A stretch of 24,063 nucleotides of DNA from a virus. A program made the position numbers and the translations under genes. The notes beneath the pieces were generated by a model. It was given only the letters and a program-made list of their open reading frames with translations, did no database searches and was not told where the DNA came from. Below are positions 708 through 21,968 of this stretch, piece after piece (within the stretch, counting starts at the first letter, position 1; every line of letters starts with the position of its first letter). The DNA lies in IMG/VR virus record IMGVR_UViG_3300021090_000007, positions 1-24,063 of that record, one strand, 5' to 3'.

Positions 708-715
708 GGGGAGTC

Positions 716-5521: not shown

Positions 5522-5524
5522 ATC

Positions 5525-5947: not shown

Positions 5948-5974
5948 TCAACCGATATCCGTAGGGGGAGTTCA

Positions 5975-8727: not shown

Positions 8728-9237
8728 ATGCATCGCTATAAGTCGTGGAATGGCCCGATGCCCACCACAGCGGCACAAGCATCCGTGACTACGGGTACGG
8801 CCATCAAGACCATGTTGCAGCTCAGCACCCCGAGCACGCGACAGTTGCAGGTCATCGCATGGGGGTTCTCGATTGACGACTACCCCGGTGCTGACTCGGT
8901 TGTGGAGCTACTCCAAACGGACGTAGCGGCCACCGTGACGGCTCACGTAGCCGCCGGTGTGCAGCCCCTTGACCCGAACGCCCCGGCTTCCCTGCTCACG
9001 CTGGGAGTCGCTAACACGGGGTACACCGGGACGGCGGAAGGCACCACGACGGCGGCCCGTGTGTTCGACGCTGTGTCTCTGGACACGACGGCGGGCAGCA
9101 ATGCGCCTCTGTCGTATACCTACCAGTTCATGCCGGATGAACGCCCCATTCTCGCCATCTCCAAGTTCCTCAGGGTACGGGCAACCACGCCGACTACCGC
9201 CGTTGACATGCGGTGCTGGATTGTGTGGGACGAATAA
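8728..9237 (+). CDS. Tail protein of unknown detail (between tape measure and minor tail)
   Basis: The 169-aa product starts three bases after the tape measure stop, with AGAGG upstream. It is beta-rich, with QLQVIAWGFSIDDYPGADSVV near residues 39-59, a VFDAVSLDTT stretch, and a strand-rich end (FLRVRATTPTTAVDMRCWIVWDE). Its place is that of a distal tail or tail-baseplate component, but it is far shorter than common distal tail proteins. A decoration or capsid-surface-like fold is also possible. No enzyme motif is seen. Confidence 0.7.
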   Translation: MHRYKSWNGPMPTTAAQASVTTGTAIKTMLQLSTPSTRQLQVIAWGFSIDDYPGADSVVELLQTDVAATVTAHVAAGVQPLDPNAPASLLTLGVANTGYTGTAEGTTTAARVFDAVSLDTTAGSNAPLSYTYQFMPDERPILAISKFLRVRATTPTTAVDMRCWIVWDE

Positions 9238-9240
9238 CCA

Positions 9241-11481
9241 ATGAGTGTCGCATCTCGTATAGCAGAGTGGGATCAGAACCTAGGACGTAACCGCCGGTGG
9301 GGTGGTTCTGTCAGCATGGGATCAGGTCCCGGTTACTCCACGAGTGAGACACCCGTTGGCCCGATGGTTGAGATCTACGTTGATGAAACGTGGATGGACA
9401 TTTCACCTGACGTTCGCTATGCGGACAAGATTAACATCTCGGGTGGCCGCCCCAATGAGGCAGCGACTACGCCCCCTAGTACGTGTCGCTTTGTGCTCAA
9501 CAATCAGAACGGGCTTTACTCACCACGCAATGCGATGTCGCCTTTGTACCGGAAGATCGGACGCAATACGCAGGTACGCGTATCGGTCAACCAAGAGGGC
9601 ACCGTGCGGTACCGGTTCTATGGTGAGATCGTGGCGTGGCCGTCTCAGTGGGACAACACAGGTAACGACGTATGGGTGACGATTGAGGCGGCCGGTATCC
9701 TGCGGCGCTTGTCGCAAGGGGATAGCCCGCTTCACTCGACTCTCTACCGGGGGCTGTTGCGGAACACGGTTAACCCTGTCATCGCCTATTGGCCTATGGA
9801 GGACGGTGCTGAATCCACGTCGCTTGCTAGCGCTGTGGCTAACGGGCTGAGTGCAACCATTGGCGGCACCCCTACCCTCTCCAGCTACACAGGCTTCCCA
9901 TGTTCCGATGCTATTCCGGTGCTGGCTAACGGATCGGTTACCGGTGCGGTACCTGCGTACACCGTAACGGGTAGTACTCAGGTACGCTTTCTCGTGGCTA
10001 TCCCTGCGGCTGGTGATACTAACGGTAAACGACTGTGCAGCATCACAACCACCGGCTCAGTTAGGACCTGGATTCTGGTCTACGGTTCGGGCTCGGGTGG
10101 CACTCTACAGTTGAACGCATATGATGAGGATGGTGTACTGCTAGATCAAACGGGTGTCTTTGGGTTCAACATGAACGGCTCAGCTAAACGAGTGTCCATG
10201 GAAATGACCCAAAACGGGGCAGATGTTGACGTGCTCATGCAGGGCTTTGAAGTGGACTACCCAACGGTGGGGGCTAGCACGCCTGACACGTTCGTTGGCA
10301 TGACGGTAGGTCGTGTGACTCGGATATCGTTGTCCATTGGGCAGGGTCCTGGCGAGACAGCATTCGGGCACCTATCCCTACAGAAACAAATCAGCGGGCT
10401 TACTGATGAGGTATCCCAGATCAATGCATACAGCGGCGAGAACCCCACTAGCCGTCTTAGGCGGCTATGCATAGAGGAAGCCGTTCCGTTCAGGTCAATA
10501 GCTCATGCGTCATACAGCGACGTAGCGGGCTTCATGGGGCCACAGCGGTCTAACAACCTGGTGACGTTGCTTCAAGAATGTGTGGACACCGACCTAGGAA
10601 TTCTGTACGAACCTCGCGATGAGTTCGGCTTGCAGTATCGCACACGGCTTTCTCTCTACAATCAAGCTGCTAAGCTTGCGCTGTCTTACACGAATAGTGA
10701 TCTCTTTGCGCCACCTATCCCCGTGGATGACGATCAGCTTTCACAGAACGACATCACGGTCAAGCGCGACCAAGGATCGTCAGCGCGCTCTGTGCTGGAG
10801 ACAGGAGCTCTGTCAGTACTACCACCACCGGCGGGTATAGGTCGGTATGACGTGTCCCCCACCGTCAGCCTGGAAGACGACACGCTACTAGCTGATCAAG
10901 CGGGATGGCGGCTGTTGCTCGGTACGGTGGATGAGCCGCGATACCCCACAATGACCGTGCATCTCAAGCGTGCAACCTTTACGGCAAACTATGACCTCAC
11001 TGCCGCTGTGCTGACTCTGGGTATTGGTGACCGGATCACCATCTCGGATGCTCCCTCTCAGGTTCCCGCCGGTGATATCAGTCAGATAGCGCAAAGCTAC
11101 ACCGAAACCATTGACCAATTCGAGCACATCATCAGCTTTAACGGTGCGCCTGAAAGTCCGTACCACATTGCCGTAGTGGATGACGCCACGCTAGGCCGTG
11201 CGGATACTGACGGTAGCTCGCTGACTGCCGCAGTGGACTCGACAGCCGTCAGCCTTTCGGTCGCCACTACGGCGGGCCCGGTATGGGTGGATTCTGCGGC
11301 TTATGCTTCTGAGTTCCCGTTTGACGTCATGATAGGCGGGGAAGTCATGACCGTTACAGCCATCACGGGCACGGCCAGTCCTCAGACGTTCACGGTGACG
11401 CGCAGCGTCAACGGAGTTGTTAAGGCGCAGACTACGGGCACGGATATCCGGCTAGCTCAACCGATGATTATTTCTCTGTAA
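9241..11481 (+). CDS. Large minor tail protein with LamG-like insertion
   Basis: The 746-aa product begins with the pattern of actinophage minor tail proteins: VEIYVDETWMDISPDVRY, STCRFVLNNQNGLYSPRN and a strand pair VRYRFYGEIVAWP (about residues 40-135). Residues about 180-370 start at YWPMEDGAEST and have the alternating-strand, Gly/Thr-rich character of a concanavalin/LamG-like fold. The rest resembles a baseplate hub with QEC and LYEPRDEFGLQYRTR segments, ending in a small domain (EVMTVTAITG...FTVTRSVNGVVKAQT). It probably combines distal tail and host-contact roles. The ATG at 9241 has only a weak upstream GGGA; ATG 9316 is an alternative start. Confidence 0.85.
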   Translation: MSVASRIAEWDQNLGRNRRWGGSVSMGSGPGYSTSETPVGPMVEIYVDETWMDISPDVRYADKINISGGRPNEAATTPPSTCRFVLNNQNGLYSPRNAMSPLYRKIGRNTQVRVSVNQEGTVRYRFYGEIVAWPSQWDNTGNDVWVTIEAAGILRRLSQGDSPLHSTLYRGLLRNTVNPVIAYWPMEDGAESTSLASAVANGLSATIGGTPTLSSYTGFPCSDAIPVLANGSVTGAVPAYTVTGSTQVRFLVAIPAAGDTNGKRLCSITTTGSVRTWILVYGSGSGGTLQLNAYDEDGVLLDQTGVFGFNMNGSAKRVSMEMTQNGADVDVLMQGFEVDYPTVGASTPDTFVGMTVGRVTRISLSIGQGPGETAFGHLSLQKQISGLTDEVSQINAYSGENPTSRLRRLCIEEAVPFRSIAHASYSDVAGFMGPQRSNNLVTLLQECVDTDLGILYEPRDEFGLQYRTRLSLYNQAAKLALSYTNSDLFAPPIPVDDDQLSQNDITVKRDQGSSARSVLETGALSVLPPPAGIGRYDVSPTVSLEDDTLLADQAGWRLLLGTVDEPRYPTMTVHLKRATFTANYDLTAAVLTLGIGDRITISDAPSQVPAGDISQIAQSYTETIDQFEHIISFNGAPESPYHIAVVDDATLGRADTDGSSLTAAVDSTAVSLSVATTAGPVWVDSAAYASEFPFDVMIGGEVMTVTAITGTASPQTFTVTRSVNGVVKAQTTGTDIRLAQPMIISL

Positions 11482-11490
11482 GGGGGAGAC

Positions 11491-11997
11491 ATGCCGTATC
11501 CGGTGTTCACCGCTGGTCAGAGAATCACCGCTGGTGGGTTGACCGCTGGTAAGCTGGAATTCGTTACGAACTCAGCGGGTGCTCAAACGAACGCCACTAC
11601 CACGATGGCGAACATCACAGGGTTGAGTTTCGTAGTCGAGGACAACGCGCGATACCGGGTACGTGTTCTTGTCGCGTATGACGCACCTACCGCTACAGAC
11701 ATTAAGTTTGATTGGGCGGGAATTACCGGTGCGGTACTGGGGCGAAACGTCATGTCTCCTGCGACCGGTACAGCAACGAACATTGACACGAACGTTCAGA
11801 TGATTAGGCGTGCGGCATCAACGGATGTCGTCGCTGGTGGGCCTAACGCGGTAGATAGCGCATTCAGTGTCTATGCAGAGACGATTGACTTTCTCACCCA
11901 AACGGGCGGCACGGTGAACTTCCGGTTTGCAGCTAACGCAGTGGGGACGGCAACCGTTCAGGCTGACAGCTTTATCTACTATCAGCGGATGGGATAA
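11491..11997 (+). CDS. Tail-tip protein, paralogue A
   Basis: The 168-aa product starts with MPYPVFTAGQRITAGGLTAGK and ends with VQADSFIYYQRMG. It is beta-rich and clearly related to the next gene: both share the LEFVTNSAG-type segment, NIDTNVQMIRR, FRFA near the end, and QADSFIYYQR. Such proteins with an AGQ-x-(I/V)T N-terminus are placed at the tail tip in actinophages, often next to the LamG-type minor tail protein. It has a strong ribosome site (AAGGGGGAG). Its likely role is host recognition or a tail fibre tip; binding target is unknown. Confidence 0.8.
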   Translation: MPYPVFTAGQRITAGGLTAGKLEFVTNSAGAQTNATTTMANITGLSFVVEDNARYRVRVLVAYDAPTATDIKFDWAGITGAVLGRNVMSPATGTATNIDTNVQMIRRAASTDVVAGGPNAVDSAFSVYAETIDFLTQTGGTVNFRFAANAVGTATVQADSFIYYQRMG

Positions 11998-12002
11998 GAG
12001 AC

Positions 12003-12530
12003 ATGCCATACCCTACAGTTCTAGCGGGACAGCGAGTGACATCTACTATGCTCAATGCGGGCAAGATGGAATTCGTGACGAACTCCGCTGGTTCCCAGGA
12101 CAACACGTCTACCGTGTTCATAAATGCTGTTGATCTCGTGTTTCCAGTCGAGGCTAGTTCTCGTTATTTCGTTCATGCTCTCATCTGCTATAACGCTCCG
12201 GAACCCGTCGCCAATGGTGACATCAATTTTGAGTGGACAGGCCCATCGGGGGCTACCATGGACAGGAACGTTATCTCTCCAGCTCTTGGTATGACTACGA
12301 ACATTGACACGAATATCCAGATGATTCGTCGGGGCATCGGTACGGATGTTCGATCAGGTGGCACTACCGCACCGGGAACGGCAACGGCGTTCACCGTCCA
12401 TGAGGAAGTATGCAATCTCGTGGTGAGCACTACAGCGGGTAATGTCCAGTTTCGTTTCGCGCTTGGCGCAGGTGTGGGAACGGCCACGCTTCAAGCTGAC
12501 TCATTTATCTACTACCAGCGCATCGCATAG
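12003..12530 (+). CDS. Tail-tip protein, paralogue B
   Basis: The 175-aa product starts five bases after paralogue A and shares its whole order of motifs: MPYPTVLAGQRVTSTMLNAGK, EFVTNSAGSQ, NIDTNIQMIRRG and QADSFIYYQRI. It differs most in the middle (VRSGGTTAPGTATAFTVHEE in place of VVAGGPNAVDSAFSVYAE). The ribosome site (AAGAG) is weaker than that of A. The arrangement is a tandem gene duplication with divergence in exposed loops, consistent with two related receptor-binding or tip subunits (inference). Confidence 0.8.
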   Translation: MPYPTVLAGQRVTSTMLNAGKMEFVTNSAGSQDNTSTVFINAVDLVFPVEASSRYFVHALICYNAPEPVANGDINFEWTGPSGATMDRNVISPALGMTTNIDTNIQMIRRGIGTDVRSGGTTAPGTATAFTVHEEVCNLVVSTTAGNVQFRFALGAGVGTATLQADSFIYYQRIA

Positions 12531-12540
12531 GAGAGCACAC

Positions 12541-12825
12541 ATGACGCTTCAATGGATTGATAACCCCATCACCGTGGTTCCGTACATCCAACTGGGATCA
12601 GTGGTGAAGGTACGCGGAAACAAGAACCTTGGCGGGGGTGAAAACCGTGTGGCCGCCACCACCATCACATGGTACGGAGACAGCAACACGCCCGCTGAAT
12701 CAGTCCTGTTCGCGGATGTGGAAGCCATGTGGGACATGCTTGTGACAGCGGGCTATACCATCATGGATGCGTCAGTGACAAACCCTGGCGGTATCGAGCT
12801 GGACATGCCTATCGAAAAGGCATAG
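12541..12825 (+). CDS. 94-aa hypothetical protein, last gene of tail operon
   Basis: The start is ATG 12541, behind AGGAGAG; a longer frame from 12442 would overlap paralogue B. The 94-aa product (MTLQWIDNPITVVPYIQLGS, then TWYGDSNTPAESVLFADVEA) has mixed strands and helices and no membrane segment or catalytic residues. It occupies the place where a lysin gene would be expected after the tail module, but nothing in it resembles a muramidase, amidase or peptidase. Function is unknown; a small tail-tip or assembly protein is possible. Confidence 0.68.
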   Translation: MTLQWIDNPITVVPYIQLGSVVKVRGNKNLGGGENRVAATTITWYGDSNTPAESVLFADVEAMWDMLVTAGYTIMDASVTNPGGIELDMPIEKA

Positions 12826-12867: not shown

Positions 12868-12882
12868 GCTTTGGGGCGTGGG

Positions 12883-13113
12883 TTACTGAGTGGCCTTGAC
12901 GGTGTTCTGGTGGTTACGGTTCCACTCTTGCCGCCATGGCGAGAGGGTGAGTTCGGCCGTCTGTGTTTCCAGCGCCGTCACTCGCTCACTGACAGCCGCG
13001 ATGTCTTCCAGGGTGGGACTCGGGGCGGCCCTACGTGCGGCCCTGATCTGGAGTCCGATAGTGACGGCGTACAGGACGATAAGCACGGACATGAGTACGT
13101 ATACGAGTGTCAT
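12883..13113 (-). CDS. 76-aa single-pass membrane protein with coiled-coil tail
   Basis: The chosen start is ATG at 13113, two bases after the stop of the upstream gene; an in-frame ATG at 13161 would overlap it. The product has an N-terminal hydrophobic helix (MTLVYVLMSVLIVLYAVTIG), a basic patch (QIRAARRA), then a helical heptad-like stretch (IAAVSERVTALETQTAEL) and a basic end. It is the last gene of the leftward translocase cluster. It could be a small accessory membrane protein for the translocase (Spd-like proteins of actinomycete plasmids are also small and membrane-bound) or a holin-like protein; neither can be decided here. Confidence 0.68.
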   Translation of the reverse strand: MTLVYVLMSVLIVLYAVTIGLQIRAARRAAPSPTLEDIAAVSERVTALETQTAELTLSPWRQEWNRNHQNTVKATQ

Positions 13114-13115
13114 GA

Positions 13116-13403
13116 CTATGACCCACTCACAACGGCCATGCCATCTGGGGTCATGAACCATTCCGCGTTCATGTCCTTGAGCTGTGAATTCAGCTCGCAG
13201 AACTCGTCACTGAGCATGAGTGCCTTTACCGCTACGTTGGTAGCTGACCACGTCCACCACGGGCCATACCACGGGATGCGCCGTAGTGTGATGTAGACAG
13301 GATCAGCATCGCTGAGCGCCGCTTGCATGGCTTGGATGATTTCGGTGTACTCTTTGAGCGCGTCTGATGCAATACGCGCTTGACGCCTAGCTGTGAAAAT
13401 CAT
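13116..13403 (-). CDS. 95-aa hypothetical protein in translocase cluster
   Basis: The ATG at 13403-13401 overlaps the stop of the upstream gene (ATGA) and has AAGGGA behind it; a longer frame from 13484 is not needed. The product starts MIFTARRQARIASDALKEYT with an amphipathic helix to about residue 35, then a hydrophobic, tryptophan-rich segment (RRIPWYGPWWTWSATNVAVKALML) that may dip into the membrane, then a helical end. The WYGPWW motif is unusual. Family unknown. Its coupling to neighbours suggests work with the translocase. Confidence 0.65.
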   Translation of the reverse strand: MIFTARRQARIASDALKEYTEIIQAMQAALSDADPVYITLRRIPWYGPWWTWSATNVAVKALMLSDEFCELNSQLKDMNAEWFMTPDGMAVVSGS

Positions 13404-13654
13404 GATGTGTGTTCCCTTGCTCTTTTCTCGACTTCCGGAAGGGGTTCCATCCGGAAGGTGATGAGTTCCCCGTTGATGTCCCATGTGGATGAACAGTCAT
13501 GACGGCGTGCCCACGTGCTGAGACCTACGGCGAATTGGCGGGGAGATTTCTGGTACTCATCCATGGTGTTGACTCGGTACGTCCTACCGTCCATGAATAC
13601 CCGCCATGGAATCCGGCGGGGTAGCTCTCTGTCGTCAATGACTTCCATGCCCAC
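13400..13654 (-). CDS. 84-aa hypothetical protein downstream of the translocase
   Basis: The gene begins 26 bp after the translocase stop. GTG 13654 (AAAGG 4 bases upstream) or ATG 13648 are both possible. The product (VIDDRELPRRIPWRVFMDGR, TYRVNTMDEYQ, STWDINGELITFRMEP) is a mixed alpha/beta soluble protein with no membrane segment. The stop overlaps the next ATG. I do not recognise it. Confidence 0.62.
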   Translation of the reverse strand: MGMEVIDDRELPRRIPWRVFMDGRTYRVNTMDEYQKSPRQFAVGLSTWARRHDCSSTWDINGELITFRMEPLPEVEKRAREHTS

Positions 13655-13680
13655 ACTGTACCTTTCGTTGACTCTGTTGA

Positions 13681-15654
13681 CTAGTGCTGAACTCGCCGGT
13701 ATCGGGCTCGGCCTACCTTCTCAGCCCTACCCAGCTTGATAAGTTGCTTGAGGTGTAGGTCTACGTTCGTCTGGTGTAGCCCCGTGAGTTGCTCGATTTC
13801 CGTACGGTGAGTCACTGACCCATCCTCATGTAGCGCCTCATACACCTTCTCAGTAGTCGAGGGTTCCACTAGCTGAGCGTCTATCACGTCCTGCTCATGG
13901 TCTTCGATAGCAGGTGCTGTACTCGACTCGATAGGCCATGTGATTTCACGTACGGCTGTCACGTGGGGTGTGGTCATGACCTCGTTCGCCAGGACTTCCC
14001 CACTCAGATAGGTTGCCTTAGCCTGTAGCGGGTCACGGTAACCGTGTTCCGTCTCGATAAGGAACCTGTTGTTATCTAGCCGCTTAGTGTTCCATCCATC
14101 CTTGGTCGCACCTTCACCAAAGATGACACGTGACGCTCCCTCATCCTTAGTGCGTAGCCCGATAGTCTGCCGCATCTGTACCTTGACGTCGGTCGGAAGG
14201 TTGTCATCTTTGGGGTGCTGAGTAGCGAGGATAAGCGTACCGCCGTACTTCCGCGCTAGGGCGGCAACGTTGTTCAGTTTCTTATGTAGCTTGGCGTGAG
14301 CGATGCCTTGTGCCTCATCCACGATGAATACAATCTGTGGTTCTAGCGCTGTGGGCTTCCAGTTCTGCCAACCCCGTTCCGTCATCAGGTCACCCCGCCG
14401 GTTGAACTCTTCTTTCAAGAGGTCAAGGGCAAGTCGAGTGTCATCGGTACTGGTCACCACAGCGGCAACCCTTCCAGCCCAGCGGGTGAACTCGGTTGCA
14501 CCGGGGGTGAGGTCCACCAGAACAACGGCCACCCATGGGATGTGAGTGAGCATACGAATGATGACCTGCATAAGGTTCGACTTACCAGCACCCGACATGC
14601 CCGCGATAAGCAGGTGCTGCAAGACGTTGATAAGGACCTCTTGACCGGTCTCGAATAGCCCGATGGGAATCATGTGTGAGTCGCCATCGTGACTGAGCAG
14701 CGGGATAGGTTCGGCGAACGGATCAGCCGTCATGAACCTAAGGCGTGCGTCCCGCGCGAACTTACCGGGACCGGTGAGCCGTTCCACTCGGGATGCTCCA
14801 TAGCGGATGTCGGGGAAGCATCGTTCTAGTTTCTCCAGTCGGCTACGGATCTCGGACACGCCTAGCTTGTGGGTGGTGTGAATGTCCATGGTGACGGACC
14901 ACTGATCAAGTGCCACCCGACGTAGCTCTGTGCCGACCATGTCAGCGTTCCGCATGTGGACCAGCCACCCACGTACCAACTTGAGGGCGGTACGCCGCGC
15001 TTGGCGTCGGCGCGTGCCACTGAGCGCGGACCGGTCCACCGGCACCGCTCGTGGTCCCTTCCGGAAACGATGGACATACCACCATGCCGAAACGGCACAT
15101 GCCAAGATCGCGTACGTTTGTGCCATGTTGGTACCTGGTACGCCGAACACGAGACCGTGTACCACGAGTGCCAGAATGTACCCGTACCAAGGTGCCAGAC
15201 CGACCCAATGCCGGATGCCAAAGCGGTACGTACCAACGATGGCACGCACGATGGAACGGGCGGCAAGGTACCAGCCGAACCGATCAAGGTACCTGCTGAC
15301 GGGCTGACGTGCCGCTGTGGCCTTCTCAGCCTCACGTTCCACCGGCCGCCGGACGTAGATCACATCGTGGCCCACCGGCGAGACTCTAAGCATCAAGTGC
15401 AGCCCGCGCGCCCGCGTATTCGAGGGGGGTGCCCACTTAAGTTTTCCGCTTACTTGGTCCCGCGCTCGCACTCGCAGGCCCGTACGGGCACGCTCAGGGC
15501 CGCCGGTGGACTTGAGCACGGGCACGGAACCGAGCACGGTCGGGATGTCGTTGCCTGTCCGGTGACCACACCACCGGCAGTGAACCATGTCCGAGTCGTT
15601 CCACTTCTGGCACGCGGCGCACTGTTCCACATTGGCATCCGGTGGCCTGGTCAT
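13681..15654 (-). CDS. FtsK/SpoIIIE (TraB-like) DNA translocase
   Basis: The 657-aa product has, in order: a zinc ribbon (C12-x2-C15 ... C26-x2-C29); a basic region; two membrane helices (about 153-173 and 177-194); a helical linker; and a motor domain with Walker A GMSGAGKS (about 352-359) and Walker B IVFIVDEAQ (about 441-449), then TLILATQHP as in FtsK-type motors. The last 60 residues form a winged helix (EKVYEALHEDG...EIEQLTGLHQTNVDLHLKQL) where FtsK gamma and plasmid TraB proteins bind their DNA signals. ATG 15654 has AAAGGTGG upstream; the frame extends to 15768 but without need. In actinomycetes such proteins move double-stranded plasmid DNA between cells. The architecture fits TraB better than a chromosomal FtsK, whose membrane part is larger. 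A phage role, for instance in DNA delivery, is possible. Confidence 0.85.
   Translation of the reverse strand: MTRPPDANVEQCAACQKWNDSDMVHCRWCGHRTGNDIPTVLGSVPVLKSTGGPERARTGLRVRARDQVSGKLKWAPPSNTRARGLHLMLRVSPVGHDVIYVRRPVEREAEKATAARQPVSRYLDRFGWYLAARSIVRAIVGTYRFGIRHWVGLAPWYGYILALVVHGLVFGVPGTNMAQTYAILACAVSAWWYVHRFRKGPRAVPVDRSALSGTRRRQARRTALKLVRGWLVHMRNADMVGTELRRVALDQWSVTMDIHTTHKLGVSEIRSRLEKLERCFPDIRYGASRVERLTGPGKFARDARLRFMTADPFAEPIPLLSHDGDSHMIPIGLFETGQEVLINVLQHLLIAGMSGAGKSNLMQVIIRMLTHIPWVAVVLVDLTPGATEFTRWAGRVAAVVTSTDDTRLALDLLKEEFNRRGDLMTERGWQNWKPTALEPQIVFIVDEAQGIAHAKLHKKLNNVAALARKYGGTLILATQHPKDDNLPTDVKVQMRQTIGLRTKDEGASRVIFGEGATKDGWNTKRLDNNRFLIETEHGYRDPLQAKATYLSGEVLANEVMTTPHVTAVREITWPIESSTAPAIEDHEQDVIDAQLVEPSTTEKVYEALHEDGSVTHRTEIEQLTGLHQTNVDLHLKQLIKLGRAEKVGRARYRRVQH
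15060..15270. repeat. TGGYAC-rich stretch inside the translocase gene
   Basis: This coding segment (membrane part of the translocase) carries many GTACCA, GTGCCA, TGGTAC and TGGCAC words on both strands, for example around 15089-15100 (GGCACATGCC), 15117-15144, 15159-15174, 15184-15202 and 15229-15243. The same words fill the upstream region. Some are explained by Tyr/Val/Trp codons, but the density is unusual compared with the rest of the gene. A DNA-binding signal embedded in the gene is an inference. Confidence 0.4.
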
Positions 15655-15657
15655 CGC

Positions 15658-15679
15658 GTGCCACCTTTGGCATGTGCCA
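15658..15679. repeat. 22-bp direct repeat, copy 1
   Basis: The sequence gtgccacctttggcatgtgc plus CA matches 15816-15837 at 19 of 22 bases; the three differences are consecutive in the middle (ttt versus ggc). Copy 1 covers the ribosome site of the translocase gene. Each copy contains alternating GTGCCA and GGCA half-sites and is followed by an inverted TGCCA...TGGCA pair, as in a complex operator. Confidence 0.7.
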
Positions 15680-15869
15680 GAGTGGCACGATGACTTGTGG
15701 TCACTGGTACATGGAACCTGGCACAGAGGCAATCGCGTGGTACATCGAGCCCGGTACCGAAATGGCACGTTGGTACGTGGAACCTGGTACGCGCCCTACG
15801 GCCGAAGGACAGGAGGTGCCACCGGCGGCATGTGCCATTCTTGGCATGGGAAAGGGACGTACCACTTAG
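15672..15869 (+). CDS. Candidate small gene with three WYxEPGT peptide repeats
   Basis: A rightward frame of 65 codons from ATG 15672 (or 74 from GTG 15642, overlapping the translocase start) contains three 11-residue units at 15706-15804: WYMEPGTEAIA, WYIEPGTEMAR and WYVEPGTRPTA. Between units most base changes fall at third codon positions and are silent (GAA/GAG, CCT/CCC, GGC/GGT, ACA/ACC/ACG), while the complementary strand peptides are not conserved. That favours coding on this strand. Against it: no clear ribosome site, and the stop lies in the loop of the 15851-15887 hairpin. It may be a small protein or only a repeat array. Function unknown. Confidence 0.4.
   Translation: MCQSGTMTCGHWYMEPGTEAIAWYIEPGTEMARWYVEPGTRPTAEGQEVPPAACAILGMGKGRTT
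15706..15804. repeat. Three tandem 33-bp imperfect repeats
   Basis: Units begin with TGGTAC at 15705, 15738 and 15771, each followed 14 bases later by TGGCAC, CGGTAC or TGGTAC. The exact 33-bp spacing is a multiple of three, compatible with protein repeats, and is near three helical turns, also compatible with protein binding on one DNA face. Confidence 0.75.
15816..15837. repeat. 22-bp direct repeat, copy 2
   Basis: This is the partner of 15658-15679, in the same orientation, 158 bp away, and on the other side of the 33-bp units. It is followed by a TGCCA (15833-15837) - TGGCA (15842-15846) inverted pair. Confidence 0.7.
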
Positions 15870-15887
15870 GGTGTGGTACGTCCCTTT
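15851..15887. terminator. Perfect 15-bp stem-loop
   Basis: AAAGGGACGTACCAC (15851-15865) pairs perfectly with GTGGTACGTCCCTTT (15873-15887) over a 7-base loop. Flanking A and T runs make it usable as a bidirectional terminator, for the leftward pair of genes ending at 15975 and for any rightward transcript from 15672. It also contains two of the TGGTAC words and would lie in the leader of a translocase mRNA started near 15905, so an attenuator is another reading. Confidence 0.65.
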
Positions 15888-15911
15888 GTCGTTTGTGTAC
15901 GTCATGTCGTC

Positions 15912-15951
15912 AGTGTATGCGATGATGACTCTGTTTGTCACGCTATGTGAC
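15912..15951 (-). promoter_or_regulatory. Possible translocase promoter with GTCAC operator-like repeat
   Basis: On the minus strand GTGACA (15941-15936) and TACACT (15917-15912) are separated by 18 bases, a passable sigma-70-type promoter. The -35 element overlaps the inverted repeat GTCAC-N5-GTGAC (15937-15951). The 320-bp stretch 15655-15974 contains no other clear leftward promoter. Assignment is tentative. Confidence 0.28.
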
Positions 15952-15974
15952 TACAGGTCAAGGGTGACGGTTGG

Positions 15975-16139
15975 TCATCCACCTGGAAGCTTGACCGGTG
16001 GTTGACTCCAGTTCTCGTCAAGAATCGTCTCGATATCCTCAAGCGCTGAGTGCTTGTCGGATTCGTATTTGTCAGCGTCATCTGCAAACGCACGTTCGAT
16101 TCGTGCTCGAATGCGTGCCTCTTGGTCGGGGGTGATCAT
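15975..16139 (-). CDS. 54-aa acidic hypothetical protein
   Basis: ATG 16139-16137 overlaps the stop of the upstream gene as ATGA. The product (MITPDQEARIRARIERAFAD, DADKYESDKHSALEDIETIL, ending DENWSQPPVKLPGG) is a charged, mostly helical soluble protein with an acidic middle. Coupling to the 110-aa gene and placement next to the control switch suggest a regulator accessory or early protein. I do not recognise it. Confidence 0.65.
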   Translation of the reverse strand: MITPDQEARIRARIERAFADDADKYESDKHSALEDIETILDENWSQPPVKLPGG

Positions 16140-16468
16140 GAGTCACTGCCCAACTCATATAGGTCGTCGTCGCGCATGGTGGACATGCCCGCTGCCTGTA
16201 GCTCTTTGATGGACATCCGGCTACGTACCCGCTGTGCATCCTTCCTTTCTTGTGCGAGTTCATCGCGGTGCATCTGTGCTGTCATCAGAGTGCTAAAGCT
16301 ACAGCTCTGCGTTTCTGCGTAGTCGGTCACGGTGTCGAGACCTAGTTCGTTCGCCACGTAAGGCATTCCCTTTTCGTCCCACGCTTCCACCGGGAGGTAT
16401 TCCATCCGGTGAGTGAGTGAGCTGAGAAATGCCGCCATGGTGCCTGTCGTGCATGGGGTGAATGTCAT
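16136..16468 (-). CDS. 110-aa hypothetical protein, first leftward gene of the switch
   Basis: It is the first gene transcribed leftward from the two-way promoter region. Residues 1-30 are mixed (MAAFLSSLTHRMEYLPVEAWD), the middle has ELGLDTVTDYAETQ, and residues 60-100 are a charged helix (MHRDELAQERKDAQRVRSRM). ATG 16468 has AAAGG 13 bases upstream; ATG 16438 is another possible start with a weak site. It does not look like a Cro or integrase. Its position opposite the repressor is that of early or lytic-entry genes in temperate phages. Confidence 0.62.
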   Translation of the reverse strand: MTFTPCTTGTMAAFLSSLTHRMEYLPVEAWDEKGMPYVANELGLDTVTDYAETQSCSFSTLMTAQMHRDELAQERKDAQRVRSRMSIKELQAAGMSTMRDDDLYELGSDS

Positions 16469-16499
16469 GACTGTCAGTCAACCTTTCTTGTCTTCGCAG

Positions 16500-16552
16500 T
16501 TGTCCGTACTGCCTACATGTGTTAGACTACGTTAGTAGGCAGCACAAAGCAA
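16500..16552. promoter_or_regulatory. Face-to-face promoter pair with palindromic operator
   Basis: Rightward: TTGTCC (16500-16505), 17-base spacer, TAGACT (16523-16528). Leftward on the other strand: TTGCTT (16552-16547), 17-base spacer, TAGTCT (16529-16524). The two -10 boxes overlap, so RNA polymerase can occupy only one at a time. Arms CTGCCTAC (16509-16516) and GTAGGCAG (16535-16542) form an inverted repeat centred on the shared -10, a likely repressor site. The layout is that of a bistable switch controlling repressor versus leftward genes. Confidence 0.65.
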
Positions 16553-16563
16553 GGGGTCGCCAA

Positions 16564-16596
16564 ATGGTGACACGTAGTCAAGAAAAGAAAGGATGA
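16564..16596 (+). other. Ten-codon leader frame before the repressor
   Basis: ATG 16564, preceded by AAGGGG at 8 bases, opens a frame MVTRSQEKKG ending at TGA 16594-16596, three bases before the repressor ATG. The repressor's own GAAAGG ribosome site lies inside it. The octamer CAAATGGT occurs at both starts. It may couple or tune repressor translation. Confidence 0.4.
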
Positions 16597-16599
16597 CAA

Positions 16600-16818
16600 A
16601 TGGTCAATCCACGAATCGACTTCAAAGCCCGTAGGCAGGCTAAGGGCTGGTCTCACGTGCAGCTAGCGCAGCGCGTAGGGGTCACACCGGCGGCTGTTGG
16701 CCACTGGGAGATAGGGACGCGCGAACCTTCCGCGCGGAACGCTCTCAAGCTCTCTCAGGCGCTCGGGTGCAAGGTGGAAGACCTGTTCACGTACGATCCC
16801 GAACAGCCGGACGCATGA
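16600..16818 (+). CDS. XRE-family (HTH_3) repressor-like regulator
   Basis: The 72-aa product is essentially a single lambda-repressor-like helix-turn-helix domain: FKARRQAKGWSHVQLAQRVG then VTPAAVGHWEIGTREPSA and ALKLSQALGCKVEDLF. Such single-domain proteins bind DNA as dimers and lack a LexA-type cleavage part, so induction by RecA is not expected. ATG 16600 has GAAAGG upstream. It is followed by a strong stem-loop and sits downstream of the two-way switch, so autoregulation and control of leftward genes are likely. It could act as copy-number control for the replication genes or as an immunity repressor. Confidence 0.88.
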   Translation: MVNPRIDFKARRQAKGWSHVQLAQRVGVTPAAVGHWEIGTREPSARNALKLSQALGCKVEDLFTYDPEQPDA

Positions 16819-16819
16819 A

Positions 16820-16854
16820 AAGGCCGCCCGGTGCGGACAACACCGAACGGCCTT
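16820..16854 (+). terminator. Stem-loop terminator after the repressor
   Basis: AAGGCCG (16820-16826) pairs with CGGCCTT (16848-16854) and CGGTG (16829-16833) with CACCG (16841-16845), with one 2x2 mismatch between and a 7-base loop. The A-rich 5' side and short T tail fit an intrinsic terminator separating repressor and helicase transcripts. Confidence 0.65.
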
Positions 16855-16914
16855 CACGCGATCTCTCGCACATTCACCCAAGCTCAAGCTACCACAGATG
16901 TAGTGGCTTGACTA

Positions 16915-16930
16915 GTGGTCAGGAGACCAC
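16915..16930 (+). promoter_or_regulatory. Hairpin presenting the helicase ribosome site
   Basis: GTGGTC (16915-16920) pairs with GACCAC (16925-16930), leaving the SD core AGGA as the four-base loop, 8 bases before ATG 16933. This could limit or tune translation of the replication protein. Confidence 0.45.
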
Positions 16931-16932
16931 CA

Positions 16933-18333
16933 ATGCCTGAACTGAACGGCAAGATCCGGGTACTTCCACCGGCGCATGCTCAGCGGATTCAAGCCCAGCG
17001 AGAGCAGTACGACCGCGAGGAACGTATGCACCTCGCTATGGAGCTGGATAAGGTCAAAGACCAGATCATGACCGCCACTGACGTACGTGATCTGTACGCG
17101 CTCTGCTATATCGCTCGCAAAAACGGCGCATGGAACGATGAACTCAAGACTCTTGGGTCCAAGAAAAAAGAGTTCCTTGAGAAGTACGCGCCCGGTGCTG
17201 GTTTCAAGTCACGCAATCCCGAGCCTGAGACTCTGGCACTAACCGATGGTGAAGACACATGGGAAGACGTAGATCCTACCGACGTCCTTAACGGGATGTT
17301 CGAACCGACTAAGCCGGATCTCATGATGCGCACTGACGATATCGGTCTCATCTACTCTGGCAAGCTTCACAGCTTCCATGGTGAGTCTGAATCAGGCAAG
17401 TCTCTCGTGCTCCTATGGGAAGCCGCAAGGCTCATGAACAACGGTGAGGACGTTCTGTGGCTGGATTTCGATTCCGACCTACAGGAAAACGTCGGTCGTC
17501 TCGTGGCGTTCGGGGTAGAGAAGGACGTCATCCGGGAACACTTCAAGTACAAGCGTCCTGAGGCGGGCATCATCGGGTCAGCAGGGTATGAGGCCATGTT
17601 CTCACGTACGTACGCACTCGCGGTTCTCGATGGTGTCACTGACGCCATGATGCTGCTCAGCGAGGATGGCACGATCAAGGGTGACCCAAACGACGCGTTC
17701 ACTAAGTTCTCTCGCAAACTTCCCCGTAGGCTCGCGGACGAAACCGGCGCGGCAGTTGTCATGGTCGACCACGTGACAAAAGACGCACAGACAAGAGGCC
17801 GATTCGCCATCGGTGCGCAAGCCAAGATGAGTCAGCTTACAGGTGCGGCTTACAGCGTGGCAGTCAGCAAGGTATTCGGGCGCGGTATGAAAGGTGAGAT
17901 CACACTGTACGTAGGCAAGGACCGTCCGGGCGGTGTGCGTATTCATGGTAGCTCTACCGTCAAGAATCAGCAGCAAGAGATCGCACGTATCACGGTGGAT
18001 GACACCGGGGATCAAACGGTTCTCACGATCAACCCGTACAAGAACTCATCTGACAGCGTGGATGATCTGTCATGCATTGACGACACGGTTGAGCGCAACG
18101 TAGCCACTGCGGTATCAACCCAACCCCATGGTCTGGGCTTCAATCAGATCATGGAAGTCATGAAGAAAGCCGGGCATGGCGCGGCTCAAGGCACGGTGCG
18201 GGAAGCTATCAGCAATCTCATAGACGGCGGCTACGTCCATGAGGGGCAGAAGCTAGGACGCGGGCTGATCCCCTTCACCCTGATCAAGGCTTACGCGGGC
18301 ATCGAGCCCCCGACTGTATCTGACCGTATCTGA
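16933..18333 (+). CDS. RepA-like AAA/RecA-fold replicative helicase
   Basis: The 466-aa product has an N-terminal helical region (residues 10-90), an acidic linker, and a RecA-fold core with Walker A GESESGKS (about 150-157), a conserved strand LWLDFDSD, Walker B LAVLDGVTD (about 229-237) and a third strand VVMVDHVTKD. The order matches RepA/DnaB-related hexameric helicases of plasmids and phages. The last ~60 residues resemble a winged helix (LGFNQIMEVMKKAG, TVREAISNLIDGGYVHE). ATG 16933 is preferred over GTG 16915 because it has AGGA upstream. Its 3' end forms part of the iteron array, so replication protein and origin are linked. No primase or polymerase is present, so host enzymes are probably recruited. 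Confidence 0.85.
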   Translation: MPELNGKIRVLPPAHAQRIQAQREQYDREERMHLAMELDKVKDQIMTATDVRDLYALCYIARKNGAWNDELKTLGSKKKEFLEKYAPGAGFKSRNPEPETLALTDGEDTWEDVDPTDVLNGMFEPTKPDLMMRTDDIGLIYSGKLHSFHGESESGKSLVLLWEAARLMNNGEDVLWLDFDSDLQENVGRLVAFGVEKDVIREHFKYKRPEAGIIGSAGYEAMFSRTYALAVLDGVTDAMMLLSEDGTIKGDPNDAFTKFSRKLPRRLADETGAAVVMVDHVTKDAQTRGRFAIGAQAKMSQLTGAAYSVAVSKVFGRGMKGEITLYVGKDRPGGVRIHGSSTVKNQQQEIARITVDDTGDQTVLTINPYKNSSDSVDDLSCIDDTVERNVATAVSTQPHGLGFNQIMEVMKKAGHGAAQGTVREAISNLIDGGYVHEGQKLGRGLIPFTLIKAYAGIEPPTVSDRI

Positions 18334-18403
18334 CCGTATCTCAGATACACATCCTGACTGTATCTGGCGTATCTCATCCTTAAGAGATACGCCAGTCAGA
18401 TAC
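18311..18403. repeat. Iteron cluster with palindrome: probable replication origin
   Basis: Three near-identical 10-mers (CGACTGTATC, TGACCGTATC, TGACCGTATC; 18311-18340) overlap the end of the helicase gene. GTATC or GATAC occurs eight times: 18316, 18326, 18336, 18344, 18360, 18369, 18386 and 18399. An 11-bp perfect stem TGGCGTATCTC (18365-18375) pairs with GAGATACGCCA (18384-18394), 8-base loop. Downstream, 18411-18465 is AT-richer, with CAAGATC/GATCTTG inverted at 18427/18451. This is the usual build of an iteron origin placed beside its Rep gene. Confidence 0.75.
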
Positions 18404-18493
18404 GGTCGAAAGACAGTGACAAACAACAAGATCCAAATACAGTCAAGACTGATCTTGGTTTGTTCTGCCGCTGTGGCCGTACAGTAGAGATCA

Positions 18494-18527
18494 GACCCGC
18501 CGGTTACTCCCCCGAGTCCGGCGGGTC
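18494..18527. terminator. Perfect 10-bp stem-loop before the terminase genes
   Basis: GACCCGCCGG (18494-18503) pairs with CCGGCGGGTC (18518-18527), loop 14. It lies just before the small terminase ribosome site. It may terminate replication transcripts, but no T-run follows; being next to the terminase, it could also mark or flank the packaging start site (inference). Confidence 0.5.
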
Positions 18528-18552
18528 CACCTACATCTAAGGGGAGGGATGT

Positions 18553-19068
18553 ATGGATGAGATGACGGAACCAGTTGACGGCATGACGGAGTTGACCACA
18601 GAGGTTAGCCGCACTGGTGGTGGAAGGTACGAACGGTCTATCGAGACGGCGCAACGTGATGCGGAAGCGGCACGGCTCAAGTCGCGCAACATGACGTATC
18701 AGCAAGTGGGCGATGCACTCGGGGTGAGCAAACAGGCCGCCCATAAGATGGTTGAGCGCGCGATGCGCGACACGCTAGAGGAACCGTCAGACCTCTTGCG
18801 TCAGCTAGAGCTGATGAAACTAGACGCCGCAGAGTCTGCCGCTGTGGCCATCATGGAACGTCTGCATTATGCGCACTCAAACGGCCGTCTCGTTTACATG
18901 GGGGACAACCCGATTAGGGATGATGGTCCCGCACTGGTGGCTATCAACACGATCATCAGGTGCATGGAGCGACGCGCTAAGCTCTTGGGTCTCGACTCCC
19001 CTACCAAGCTCGCTGTCACTGGCGCTATGCGGTACGAACTCGTGGGCATCGAGATGGACGACGTGTGA
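18553..19068 (+). CDS. Terminase small subunit
   Basis: The 171-aa product starts at ATG 18553 behind AAGGGGAGGG. It has a DNA-binding helix-turn-helix at about residues 46-70 (SRNMTYQQVGDALGVSKQAA), a central helical oligomerisation region (LRQLELMKLDAAESAAVAIM) and a C-terminal segment (VAINTIIRCMERRAKLLGLDSPTK) matching small terminases, which end with a LLGLD-type motif. It should recognise the packaging site, probably in the preceding 150 bp, and hand DNA to the large subunit. Its TGA overlaps the GTG of the next gene. Confidence 0.9.
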   Translation: MDEMTEPVDGMTELTTEVSRTGGGRYERSIETAQRDAEAARLKSRNMTYQQVGDALGVSKQAAHKMVERAMRDTLEEPSDLLRQLELMKLDAAESAAVAIMERLHYAHSNGRLVYMGDNPIRDDGPALVAINTIIRCMERRAKLLGLDSPTKLAVTGAMRYELVGIEMDDV

Positions 19069-20387
19069 CAACTCCAGTCATCCACAGATACCGGCCGCGT
19101 GGTGCGTGTCGAGACGTGTTCACCTGTAAGCGTGATGAGATTCTACTGAGTGGTCCCGCCGGTACGGGCAAGAGCCGCGCTTGCCTTGAGAAGCTACACG
19201 TGATGGCTCTTAAGTACCCCGGTATGCGTGGCCTTATCGTACGCAAGACTCTCGCCTCTCTCGGATCAACCGCTCTCGTGACATGGCGTGAGAAGGTTGC
19301 CGCTGTGGCGATAGAGACTGGCGTCGTCATGTTCTACGGAGGGTCACCACAAGAGGCAGCACAGTACCGCTATGACAACGGATCAACGATTACGATCGGT
19401 GGCATGGACAAGGCCACTAAGATCATGTCATCAGAGTACGATGTGGTTTACGTTCAGGAAGCTACCGAACTGACACTCAGCGACTGGGATCACATTACTA
19501 CTCGTCTACGTAACGGCAAGATTCCGTATCAGCAGATCATCGCGGACTGTAACCCTGATCGTCCAACCCACTGGCTTAACGAGCGATGCAACTCGGGGCG
19601 GACTCTCAAGCTGGAATCTCGGCATGAAGATAACCCGACACTCGTCAACGATGACGGCACATACACGATCAGTGGCCTTAGTTATCTGTCCAAGTTGGAC
19701 GCGCTCACCGGTGTCCGGCGTCAGCGGTTGCGGTTCGGGCTCTGGGTTGCCGCAGAGGGAATCGTGTATGAGGACTACGATCCCGTTATCCATCTGATTG
19801 ATCAACGCCCCATACCTGATGATTGGGCACGCTATTGGGTCATCGACTTTGGGTATACCAACCCGTTCGTACTCCAGTGGTGGGCGGAAGACCACGACGG
19901 ACGGCTGTACATGTATCGCGAGATCTACATGACGGGCAAGCTAACTGAGGACCACGCCAAGACCGCGCTAGCTCAGGTGACCGATAGGCGTGGCAACTGG
20001 ACTGAGCCTAAGCCGGTGGCGATCATCTGTGACCATGACGCGGAAGACCGCGCGACGTTCACGAAACATACTCAGCTACCGACTACAGCGGCTAAGAAAG
20101 GCAAGACCAAAGGTATCCAGGTCACACAAGCCCGCTTCAAGGTTCAGAAGGATGGCAAGCCACGTATCTATTTCATGCGCGATACCGTGGTGAAGAGAGA
20201 CACATCTCTATCCGATGTGGGTAAGCCGACATCCACTGTTGAGGAACTCACCGGGTACGTGTGGCCCGATGGCAAGACCGGCGACAAAGCAGAGGAACCG
20301 GTCAAGGAAGACGATCACGGTATGGACGACATGCGGTATATGTGCGCACACCGGGACACCCGCGAGTACGCCGTTAGGTGGATCTGA
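19065..20387 (+). CDS. Terminase large subunit (ATPase/nuclease)
   Basis: GTG 19065 overlaps the small subunit stop. The 440-aa product has Walker A GPAGTGKS (30-37), Walker B VVYVQEAT (127-134, with the catalytic Glu), a coupling motif ADCNP (160-164), and RNaseH-like nuclease acidic residues at D261 (VIDFGYTNP), D323/D325 (ICDHDAED) and D421/D422 (HGMDDMRYM). All motor and nuclease parts are intact. It packages DNA into the prohead through the portal. Length is normal. Confidence 0.95.
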   Translation: MTTPVIHRYRPRGACRDVFTCKRDEILLSGPAGTGKSRACLEKLHVMALKYPGMRGLIVRKTLASLGSTALVTWREKVAAVAIETGVVMFYGGSPQEAAQYRYDNGSTITIGGMDKATKIMSSEYDVVYVQEATELTLSDWDHITTRLRNGKIPYQQIIADCNPDRPTHWLNERCNSGRTLKLESRHEDNPTLVNDDGTYTISGLSYLSKLDALTGVRRQRLRFGLWVAAEGIVYEDYDPVIHLIDQRPIPDDWARYWVIDFGYTNPFVLQWWAEDHDGRLYMYREIYMTGKLTEDHAKTALAQVTDRRGNWTEPKPVAIICDHDAEDRATFTKHTQLPTTAAKKGKTKGIQVTQARFKVQKDGKPRIYFMRDTVVKRDTSLSDVGKPTSTVEELTGYVWPDGKTGDKAEEPVKEDDHGMDDMRYMCAHRDTREYAVRWI

Positions 20388-20428
20388 TGATGTACATTGA
20401 ACTCAACACACATGAGGTAGGGCTATGA
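20387..20428 (+). other. 13-codon bridging frame between terminase and membrane protein
   Basis: ATG 20387 overlaps the terminase TGA (TGATG) and the frame MMYIELNTHEVGL ends at TGA 20426-20428, overlapping the ATG of the next gene (ATGA). It may pass ribosomes from the terminase to the 20425 gene. A functional peptide is unproven. Confidence 0.35.
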
Positions 20429-20679
20429 CCGCGCTGGACGCATGGACCACGGGCCGTCAGACCCGTTCACAGCGGCGCGCACGTAGACCTGTACTTGTGG
20501 TCCTGTTGACGCTCGCAGGTCGGTACCTGCCGCAGTGGGCTACCGTGCGGCGCACTCTCACCTACGTCACGGCGTTCGTTCTGATTGATCTGTCTGCGTG
20601 GCAATTCGCCACATGGTCGGGGCTCTTGGTCACGGGGCTTTCGTTGCTCGCTCTCGACTTCCTGAGCGATGACGAATGA
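20425..20679 (+). CDS. Small membrane protein between terminase and portal
   Basis: The 84-aa product has a basic N-terminus (RQTRSQRRARRPVLVVL), a first hydrophobic stretch (PVLVVLLTLAGRYL), then a longer hydrophobic helix pair (TYVTAFVLIDLSAW, LLVTGLSLLALDFL) and an acidic end. Similar small membrane proteins sit between terminase and portal in actinophages; their role is unknown, with holin-like activity sometimes proposed. The stop overlaps the portal ATG (ATGA). Confidence 0.75.
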   Translation: MTALDAWTTGRQTRSQRRARRPVLVVLLTLAGRYLPQWATVRRTLTYVTAFVLIDLSAWQFATWSGLLVTGLSLLALDFLSDDE

Positions 20680-21968
20680 GGTCACTCCGATCAGTAGTCA
20701 ATAAGTCGCCGGTGCCGTACGTCGCCACCCGGAACAGTCTGCTTTCCATGTTCCGCTCTGATGACAAGCTTGACCAGATGCGAGCCATGGGCTCAGTCGG
20801 TACTCTGTTTGCCATCGTGAATGTCACGAGCGAGGCCACGTCACAAGTTAACTGGCGGCTCTACCAAAAGCAGACGGATAATCGTCGCCGGTATGAGTAC
20901 GACGGACAGGACGCGCGTAAAGAGGTCCTGAATCACCCCGCACTACTGGTGTGGAACAAGCCGAACCCGTTCATGACACGGCAAGAGTTTGTCGAGGCGA
21001 CTGAGCAGCACCGGCTACTCACCGGTGAATCATGGTGGTTGCCCACACAAGGGGACATATTCAACTACCCTACCGAACTCTGGTATGCGAGACCTGATCG
21101 TATGGAGGTAAACCCTGATCCATTTGGGGACTTCCTTACCGGGTATTCATACCGATCACCTGACGGCACTAAGATTCCACTCACCCCTGATGAAGTGATC
21201 CTAAACCGTATCCCCAGTCCCATTGACCCGTACCGTGGGTGGGGACCGGTGCAATCCATCCTCGCTGATCTCGATGCCACGAGACTATCCGCTGAGTGGA
21301 ACCGTAATTTCTTCCGCAACAGTGCGATGCCCGGTGGCATCATCAAGGTTGATGAAGGCTTGACGGATGGTCAGTACAACCGGCTACAGCAGCAATGGGG
21401 GGAGCAGCACCGGGGCGTGGGTAACGCGCATCGTGTCGGCATCCTTGAAGCCGGTATGGAGTGGGTTGATCGTTCGTTCAGTCAGCGAGACATGCAATTC
21501 GTTGAGTTGCGTAAGGTATCGAGTGAGGTTATCCGCGAGGCGTACCACTTCCCTAAGCCAATGCTTGGCGCTGTGGATGACGTCAACCGGGCCAACGCTG
21601 AGGCGGCGGAAGTCGTATTCGCTAGATGGCTGGTCAAGCCCGCGCTTGAGCGCATGAAGCAAGCGCTTAACGCTGAGTTCCTGCCCCTGTTCGGCTCACT
21701 GGGTAACGGTGTCGAGTTCGACTATGACAACCCGGTGCCAGATGACAGAGACGCGGACAACCGGGAGACGGAAGTCAAGGCCAACGCGTACGCGACCCTG
21801 GTGAACGCCGGTGCTGATCCTGAGCTGGTATCGGAATACCTGTGCATCCCGTATCTTGGAACCGTGCCCCCGATTCTTGCGCCGGTTCCGGCTGAACCCG
21901 CGCTACCGGCCGGTGCTATGCCCATAGGGCAGCGTCTCAATGGGCACAAGGTTAAGGAGTGGGTGTGA
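20676..21968 (+). CDS. Portal protein, HK97 family
   Basis: The 430-aa product matches the phage_portal family: an N-terminal wing region, EVLNHPALLVWNKPNPFMT, FVEATEQHRLLTGESWWLP, EVILNRIPSPIDPYRGWGPV, LSAEWNRNFFRNSAMPGG, and the C-terminal helical part FVELRKVSSEVIREAYHFPK then PMLGAVDDVNRANAEAAE. The dodecamer forms the DNA channel at one head vertex, binding terminase and connector. It has normal length. ATG 20676 overlaps the preceding stop. Confidence 0.94.
   Translation: MRSLRSVVNKSPVPYVATRNSLLSMFRSDDKLDQMRAMGSVGTLFAIVNVTSEATSQVNWRLYQKQTDNRRRYEYDGQDARKEVLNHPALLVWNKPNPFMTRQEFVEATEQHRLLTGESWWLPTQGDIFNYPTELWYARPDRMEVNPDPFGDFLTGYSYRSPDGTKIPLTPDEVILNRIPSPIDPYRGWGPVQSILADLDATRLSAEWNRNFFRNSAMPGGIIKVDEGLTDGQYNRLQQQWGEQHRGVGNAHRVGILEAGMEWVDRSFSQRDMQFVELRKVSSEVIREAYHFPKPMLGAVDDVNRANAEAAEVVFARWLVKPALERMKQALNAEFLPLFGSLGNGVEFDYDNPVPDDRDADNRETEVKANAYATLVNAGADPELVSEYLCIPYLGTVPPILAPVPAEPALPAGAMPIGQRLNGHKVKEWV

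Follow-up and report, generated by a model that had tools for sequence, protein, structure and literature searches.

A compact circular tailed-phage genome with a putative plasmid-type TraB transfer locus and no recognisable lysin

How would a small genome that encodes a complete tailed virion, a plasmid-like DNA pump and neither a recognisable lysin nor an integrase replicate, leave its cell and reach the next one? The question is raised by the IMG/VR record IMGVR_UViG_3300021090_000007, the whole 24,063 bp of which were analysed here (the window). Our best reading of the sequence, which we consider moderately probable, is that the window is a non-integrating phage-plasmid with a TraB-type transfer locus of the kind carried by actinomycete plasmids. 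More broadly, the window belongs to a clade of small circular siphovirus genomes in which no lysin is recognisable and plasmid-type replication and transfer modules are exchangeable. A first-pass annotation had placed this combination at 12883-18552; its reading of the genes stands in outline, and its span does not, the element being the whole circle.

The first 127 bases of the window are repeated exactly and in direct orientation as its last 127, which makes it a closed circle of 23,936 bp, in agreement with the 23.9 kb given previously. On the plus strand, the repressor (16600), the helicase (16915) and the iterons (18309-18448) are followed by the terminase pair, portal, protease, capsid and connector, and then by the tail genes, tape measure, tip and minor tail proteins, which end at 12825; beyond this point lies a minus-strand block of small genes and the pump. 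A search of phages and plasmids with the DNA of the whole window gave no match. Relatives with the same layout, as the first-pass annotation proposed to look for, were gathered by portal and tail-tip searches; six compact genomes of 20.9-28.4 kb share the virion module, namely, G002, G003, G017, G032 and G033 (contigs of 20.9-23.3 kb) and G009 (28.4 kb). Four of these close as circles, with end overlaps of 649 bp at 97% in G002, 280 bp at 97% in G033, and exact overlaps of 127 bp in G003 and 52 bp in G009. No end overlap was found in G032 or G017; the replication gene of G032 runs over the contig ends, which fits a circle. The circular assemblies of the window and its relatives are compatible with an episome; the genomes of free phages can also give circular assemblies. 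The non-virion part of the window contains the following features (aa, amino acids).

12883..13113, minus strand: 76-aa protein with one membrane helix and a charged tail; G002 has a homologue; candidate for a holin or a single-gene lysis protein
13116..13403, minus strand: small gene, 95 aa; homologue in G033, which also bears a GTACCA cluster
13400..13654, minus strand: conserved small gene lying downstream of the pump; G002 and G032 have a 58% identical homologue close to their pump, and the pump-less relatives have none
13681..15654, minus strand: predicted TraB/FtsK-type translocase of double-stranded DNA (dsDNA), 657 aa (the pump); alternative starts 15375 and 15768
14910..15880, no strand assigned: GTRCCA repeat cluster, on both strands and in all frames, that takes in the 5' half of the pump gene together with the region upstream of it; proposed to act in cis as a transfer or stability locus
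16136..16468, minus strand, as the pump: 110-aa protein, function unknown
16600..16818, plus strand: single-domain HTH_3 repressor, of a family present in five of the six compact genomes compared
16915..18333, plus strand: AAA_25/RepA-like replication helicase, 472 aa
18309..18448, no strand assigned: iteron cluster (GTATCTGAC/AGATACGGTC repeats and inverted repeats) where the helicase gene ends and ahead of terS; proposed origin of replication

The 110-aa protein of the early region resembles a short stretch that lies within the tail operon in relatives, which suggests a moved or duplicated gene.

What kind of protein is the pump? Its start is most likely 15654 rather than 15768, with the zinc-ribbon cysteines kept; codon scoring alone favoured 15375. 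From this start, the product would comprise a zinc ribbon near the N-terminus (C12xxC and C26xxC, a CxxC pair not found in its pump relatives), two predicted membrane helices (residues 154-169 and 176-197), a motor domain (321-576) with the Walker A motif GMSGAGKS, and a C-terminal winged helix (598-657). The motor matches PF01580 above the cut-off (E 5e-7) and, in the predicted structure, adopts the FtsK/TcpA fold (Z 24-26); the structure matches are restricted to the motor and do not separate TraB, FtsK and TcpA. The winged helix is modelled with a predicted local distance difference test (pLDDT) score of about 88, and the membrane helices with low pLDDT. Thus, the parts named in the first-pass annotation are recovered, the helices at low confidence, and together they make up the TraB-type architecture of membrane anchor, FtsK-type motor and C-terminal winged helix.

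At the family level, plasmid TraB is the best NCBIfam match (E 3e-15, compared with 1e-4 for FtsK), as it is for the pumps of G002 and G009. The best plasmid match extends across 64% of the protein, winged helix included (E 5e-24), whereas the best phage match is confined to the core (37%, E 1e-15). In sequence, the pump thus resembles plasmid transfer proteins more than it does chromosomal FtsK. A tree of 25 pumps places the G002, G032 and G009 proteins together with TraBs of small plasmids (support 94/96).

Is the pump part of the virion machinery? We compared the genes of the window with those of five compact relatives; across these six genomes, the virion module is constant and the replication gene varies in type: an AAA_25 helicase in the window, a prim-pol with a D5-type protein in G002, a D5-type protein in G003, and a third type in G032, G033 and G017. 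The pump is present in four of the seven compact genomes (the window, G002, G032 and G009); it comes and goes over a constant virion and so appears to be accessory rather than a packaging component. A role as the packaging motor is ruled out, given that the terminase pair is present and the pump is missing from relatives with the same virion.

The replication and control genes of the window are of the kind previously suggested. The helicase matches AAA_25 (PF13481) weakly (E 8e-4), and its only plasmid matches, at 34-39% identity, are on two actinomycete plasmids, one of which also bears a pump and a DUF2637 gene; the repressor is a clear single-domain HTH_3 protein (E 7e-16); and 8 of the 15 AGATAC sites fall within 18101-18500 (p 3e-11, compared with 2e-6 in the best shuffle), as expected of the proposed iterons. 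Hence, plasmid-type replication, with helicase and adjacent iterons in a module that is swapped among the relatives, lies on the same molecule as a full set of virion and packaging genes. A further link is provided by G002, where a four-helix protein encoded beside the pump matches the DUF2637 protein of the Streptomyces plasmid pRL2, at 61% identity across half of its length in tblastn and 55% across 156 residues in blastp; Pfam and profile comparison were indecisive on this identity, which is settled by the pRL2 match only. In pRL2 itself, the neighbour of the DUF2637 gene shows only a weak motor match. The small Streptomyces plasmid CP146840 encodes homologues of both the pump and the helicase of the window. 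The pRL2 match and the helicase matches on actinomycete plasmids support module exchange between plasmids and phages in this group.

If the pump were a TraB-type transfer protein, a recognition site would be expected nearby: clt loci consist of 7-9 bp repeat arrays in or beside tra genes and are bound by the pump (PMC3583192; PMC4170104). We scanned the genomes without bias for 6-mers clustered within 400 bp, with 15 shuffles per genome as the null. Each compact genome has one repeat cluster adjoining the replication gene, the presumed origin. Those with a pump all have a further significant cluster at its locus, and in them these two clusters are the strongest. The motifs at the pump loci are GTGCCA/GTACCA in the window, TCCGGA in G002, CGGATC/ATCCGG in G032 and GCGAAC in G009, with p values of 5e-8 to 1e-11, each under the best of the 15 genome shuffles; a repeat cluster inside the pump gene of G013 did not rise above its shuffle null. 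The 14,910-15,880 region holds 27 of the 45 GTRCCA sites of the window. The pump coding sequence contains 14 of these, compared with a mean of 5.0 and a maximum of 12 in 3000 resamplings under genome codon usage; shuffles of its own codons have a maximum of 14, a count reached in at most 1 of 3000. Upstream of the pump there are 13, with a maximum of 5 in 3000 controls. In G002, seven ATCCGGAA copies span all three frames of the DUF2637-like gene, more than in any of 5000 synonymous shuffles (maximum 5). A chance origin of the repeat clusters is made unlikely by these codon and Markov controls.

Outside this clade, the Streptomyces plasmids p7, CP146840, NBC_00138 and pRL2, used as controls, each have a significant cluster inside the DUF2637 gene of the transfer region, and the core CGAACA is common to CP146840 and G009. 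The clusters at the pump loci may accordingly be clt loci. The classical plasmids pIJ101 and pSGL1, which have spd genes of another kind, showed no such cluster by the 6-mer scan, so that the scan misses some real clt sites. In the four control plasmids, the array motif in the DUF2637 gene differs from one to the next (positions L178 9501-9900 (pRL2), L085 6201-6600, L171 6201-6600 and L083 7101-7500), a pattern that may help to locate clt sites.

It is quite possible, somewhat short of an even chance, that the GTRCCA cluster is instead a partition or stability site, or the operator array of another protein, such as the 13116-13403 product. The pump-less G033 carries both a homologue of that gene and a GTACCA cluster (L166 2016-2311, that is, G033 13016-13311; 13 of the 31 GTACCA sites of the genome), G017 has such a cluster with no pump (L090 10579-10809, that is, G017 21579-21809; 9 of 23 sites), and in pIJ101 the small DNA-binding stability protein SpdA2 binds a palindrome in its own coding region (PMC4170104). 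However, the array of the window lies inside and just upstream of the pump gene, and G002, G032 and G009, which have the pump and no homologue of the 13116-13403 gene, also have a pump-locus cluster, albeit with other motifs. The clusters in G033 and G017 may be remnants, sites used in trans, or stability sites; because they occur in genomes without a pump, the cluster may serve something other than transfer.

Several further observations, together with these GTACCA clusters in pump-less genomes, weigh against the phage-plasmid reading. The pump scores 55.7 bits against TraB (NF041214), for which the equivalog cut-off is 800, and, with the scores of the G002 and G009 pumps also far under it, cannot be filed as a TraB member; the proposed family check thus came out in favour of TraB by rank and not by threshold. 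In the tree of 25, the window pump is a long branch of unsure placement, and the N-terminal half of its model is of low confidence. The pump is dispensable, being absent from G003, G017 and G033 (three of the seven), and no DUF2637 or spd spread gene was recognised in the window. A compact member was found neither among 84,980 species genomes, where the nearest portal is 54-56% identical, nor in the plasmid set. Integrative prophages of the same virion family also bear pump genes. The concern that an FtsK-like gene might be routine in ordinary phages therefore proved partly true, and the pump gene alone is no proof of conjugation.

Accordingly, the window could be an ordinary small temperate or lytic actinophage in which the FtsK-like gene serves within one cell, in segregation of the circle, clearing of DNA from the septum or exclusion. 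Besides the pump-bearing integrative prophages and the close relatives that dispense with the pump, this would accommodate the FtsK-like genes annotated in many larger actinophages and in Bacillus phages. We nevertheless consider this account rather unlikely: the best curated match is plasmid TraB and not FtsK, the pump locus has a repeat cluster as in plasmid tra loci, a plasmid-type DUF2637 gene lies beside the pump in relatives, and neither integrase nor lysin was found. The phage-plasmid with a TraB-type pump, as first suggested, draws its support from the clade of circles, the swapped plasmid-like replication modules, the TraB best match and the tra-like repeat clusters, and is partly upheld.

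Comparison with known systems places the window between plasmids and phages. Like the Streptomyces conjugative plasmids with a single TraB and clt (pIJ101, pSVH1, pWTY27, p7 and CP146840), it is small, with an FtsK-family pump that has one or more N-terminal membrane helices and, as in the published plasmid cases, a C-terminal winged helix, a short-repeat cluster at the tra locus and, as in some of these plasmids, a Rep with iterons; unlike them, it has a full tailed-phage gene set, and its pump is distant (25-28% identity). Actinomycete integrative and conjugative elements share the logic of a Rep plus an FtsK-type Tra (PMC3218068), whereas the window has virion genes and no recognised integrase. 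Among phages, large Streptomyces phages such as Gilgamesh (129 kb) also carry an FtsK-like pump gene, and a similar pump occurs on 130-kb circular plasmids; Gilgamesh is five times larger than the window, and its pump, which forms one clade with those of two 130-kb plasmids, belongs to a different clade and matches in the motor core only. These two circular Streptomyces plasmids (L172 and L177; NZ_CP108441 and NZ_CP070374), whose pump is sister to the Gilgamesh one, are probable large phage-plasmids. Integrative actinophages and prophages of Streptomyces, Thermoactinospora, Nonomuraea and others share the terminase-to-tail module, mostly at 45-60% identity, and several have a pump, some also with a DUF2637 gene; they differ from the window in size (29-50 kb and more), in their Amidase_2/CHAP lysins and, in those examined for it, in having a tyrosine integrase. 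Judged by its capsid (46%), the cultured phage nearest to the window is Streptomyces phage Dagobah (47 kb), which has a 38% match to the window helicase but differs in its endolysin, long terminal repeats and the lack of an annotated pump. No TraB-bearing actinophage-plasmid was found in the open-access literature searched, which is not proof of absence.

Is the virion module itself intact? The complete head-tail set previously described was found with PHROGs, Pfam and NCBIfam, in the following order around the circle.

18553..19068, plus strand: helix-turn-helix protein in the terminase small subunit position, PHROG 645
19065..20387, plus strand: terminase large subunit
20425..20679, plus strand: 84-aa membrane protein between terL and portal, occurring also in lysin-bearing relatives
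20676..21968, plus strand: portal protein
21959..22669, plus strand: head maturation protease, ClpP-type
22662..24002, plus strand: major capsid protein, HK97-type
150..1177 (150-707 and 716-1177), plus strand: two conserved head-region proteins, function unknown
1890..2144, plus strand: 84-aa protein with one membrane helix and a charged tail; second candidate lysis/holin protein
2182..3273, plus strand: head-tail connector
3270..6555, plus strand: tail completion, tube and chaperone-like genes
6536..8725, plus strand: tape measure protein, in which a hydrolase domain was looked for and not found
8728..12825, plus strand: minor tail proteins and tail tip (tip 9241-11481, PHROG 5313, E 1e-188)

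Among the head genes, 1314-1697 encodes a SAP-domain protein (PF02037, best E 3e-8 among the window open reading frames (ORFs)). The plus-strand ORF 12829-13296 looks spurious as a gene because the minus strand there encodes the small membrane protein, which has a homologue in a relative.

How, then, would such particles be released? As reported before, no lysin hydrolase, integrase or ParA family was detected with Pfam among the 71 ORFs of the window, on both strands; PF00589 and PF07508, sought for an integrase or recombinase of the type found in integrative and conjugative elements, were likewise missing from these 71 ORFs. The endolysin and integrase that the first-pass annotation had named as decisive against its reading were thus searched for, with a negative outcome. 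Neither a hydrolase nor an integrase family turned up in the non-homologous ORFs of G002, G017 and G003 or, for G032, G033 and G009, in the tape measures, tips and genes left unmatched; G009 does carry a tyrosine recombinase. Six lysins of relatives had no significant counterpart in the seven compact genomes. Four larger relatives gave Amidase_2/CHAP lysins, and G034 and G009 integrases, in the same kind of scan, so that the lysis gap does not come from a failure of the method on this virion family. A lysin of a new type would escape the scan, as the likely M15-type lysin of G024, with a weak peptidoglycan-binding match only, demonstrates. By Pfam, then, the gap is real and holds across the compact clade. 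A peptidoglycan-free host, considered on account of a relative (L126) in a metagenome-assembled genome labelled Dehalococcoidia, was rejected, the contig having 70% GC and an amidase; this 39-kb contig (L126/L161-L162) carries the same virion family, and its GC content suggests misbinning.

There is close to an even chance that the gap is only apparent, with lysis performed by an unrecognised protein, alone or with a novel hydrolase; the protein would probably be a small membrane protein, encoded at 12883-13113, 1890-2144 or 20425-20679, and this would be compatible with a non-integrating phage-plasmid. Each of the six compact genomes compared encodes small one-helix proteins close to where the tail module ends; the one in G002 has a weak holin PHROG match (E 0.08), and these proteins are the best candidates for lysis proteins. 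Position is no guide, either: the lysin of Dagobah is set apart from the virion genes, so that a lysin cannot be excluded by location alone. A hydrolase family, however, turned up in none of the ORFs scanned in the seven genomes, nor did the relatives' lysins find a match. It is quite improbable that the element is defective or helper-dependent, so that making or releasing its particles would require a lysin-bearing phage of the family to be induced in the cell that carries it. Such phages are common in Streptomyces and its kin; yet the virion and terminase genes are complete and open, unlike those of typical satellites, and the same gene content recurs in several separate circles.

The host is most likely an actinomycete. 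Named relatives of the virion module come almost entirely from filamentous actinomycetes (Streptomyces, Kitasatospora, Nonomuraea, Lentzea and others), a group in which TraB-type transfer is known to work; the GC content of the compact genomes is 57-65%, and that of the larger relatives 68-72%.

Under the favoured phage-plasmid reading, the circle would be an episome that replicates from the iteron origin and is controlled by the repressor. The pump, anchored in the membrane, would form a hexamer, dock via its winged helix on the GTRCCA array (14,910-15,880) and, in the manner of Streptomyces plasmids, drive dsDNA copies across septa and through mating contacts. Once the element is induced, the terminase would package the genome into tailed particles, and release might depend on a small membrane protein alone, on breakdown of the hyphae by the host itself, or on a helper. 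A wider and unlikely conjecture is that the entire clade of 21-28 kb circular tailed phages shed the lysin and, mostly, the integrase to live chiefly as actinomycete plasmids, with virions for distance, TraB-driven dsDNA transfer through hyphae locally, hydrolase-free release, and pump-less, array-bearing members mobilised in trans.

Phage-plasmids have been described as spread by virions, at most with acquired mobilisation genes that need a helper (PMC11652158). Judging from its genes, the element described here, which is related to phages of soil actinomycetes, may travel as virions and also pass between cells in the manner of a plasmid, and the compact clade, with its full virion set and actinomycete TraB-type transfer locus, would offer a natural test of whether one element uses both routes, for which the repeat arrays allow a direct binding assay. 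Without a recognisable lysin, the clade would also be a test of how a tailed phage exits a walled cell with no known hydrolase. Finally, it would show that transfer and replication cassettes move between Streptomyces plasmids and phages, as illustrated by a spread gene 55-61% identical to that of pRL2.

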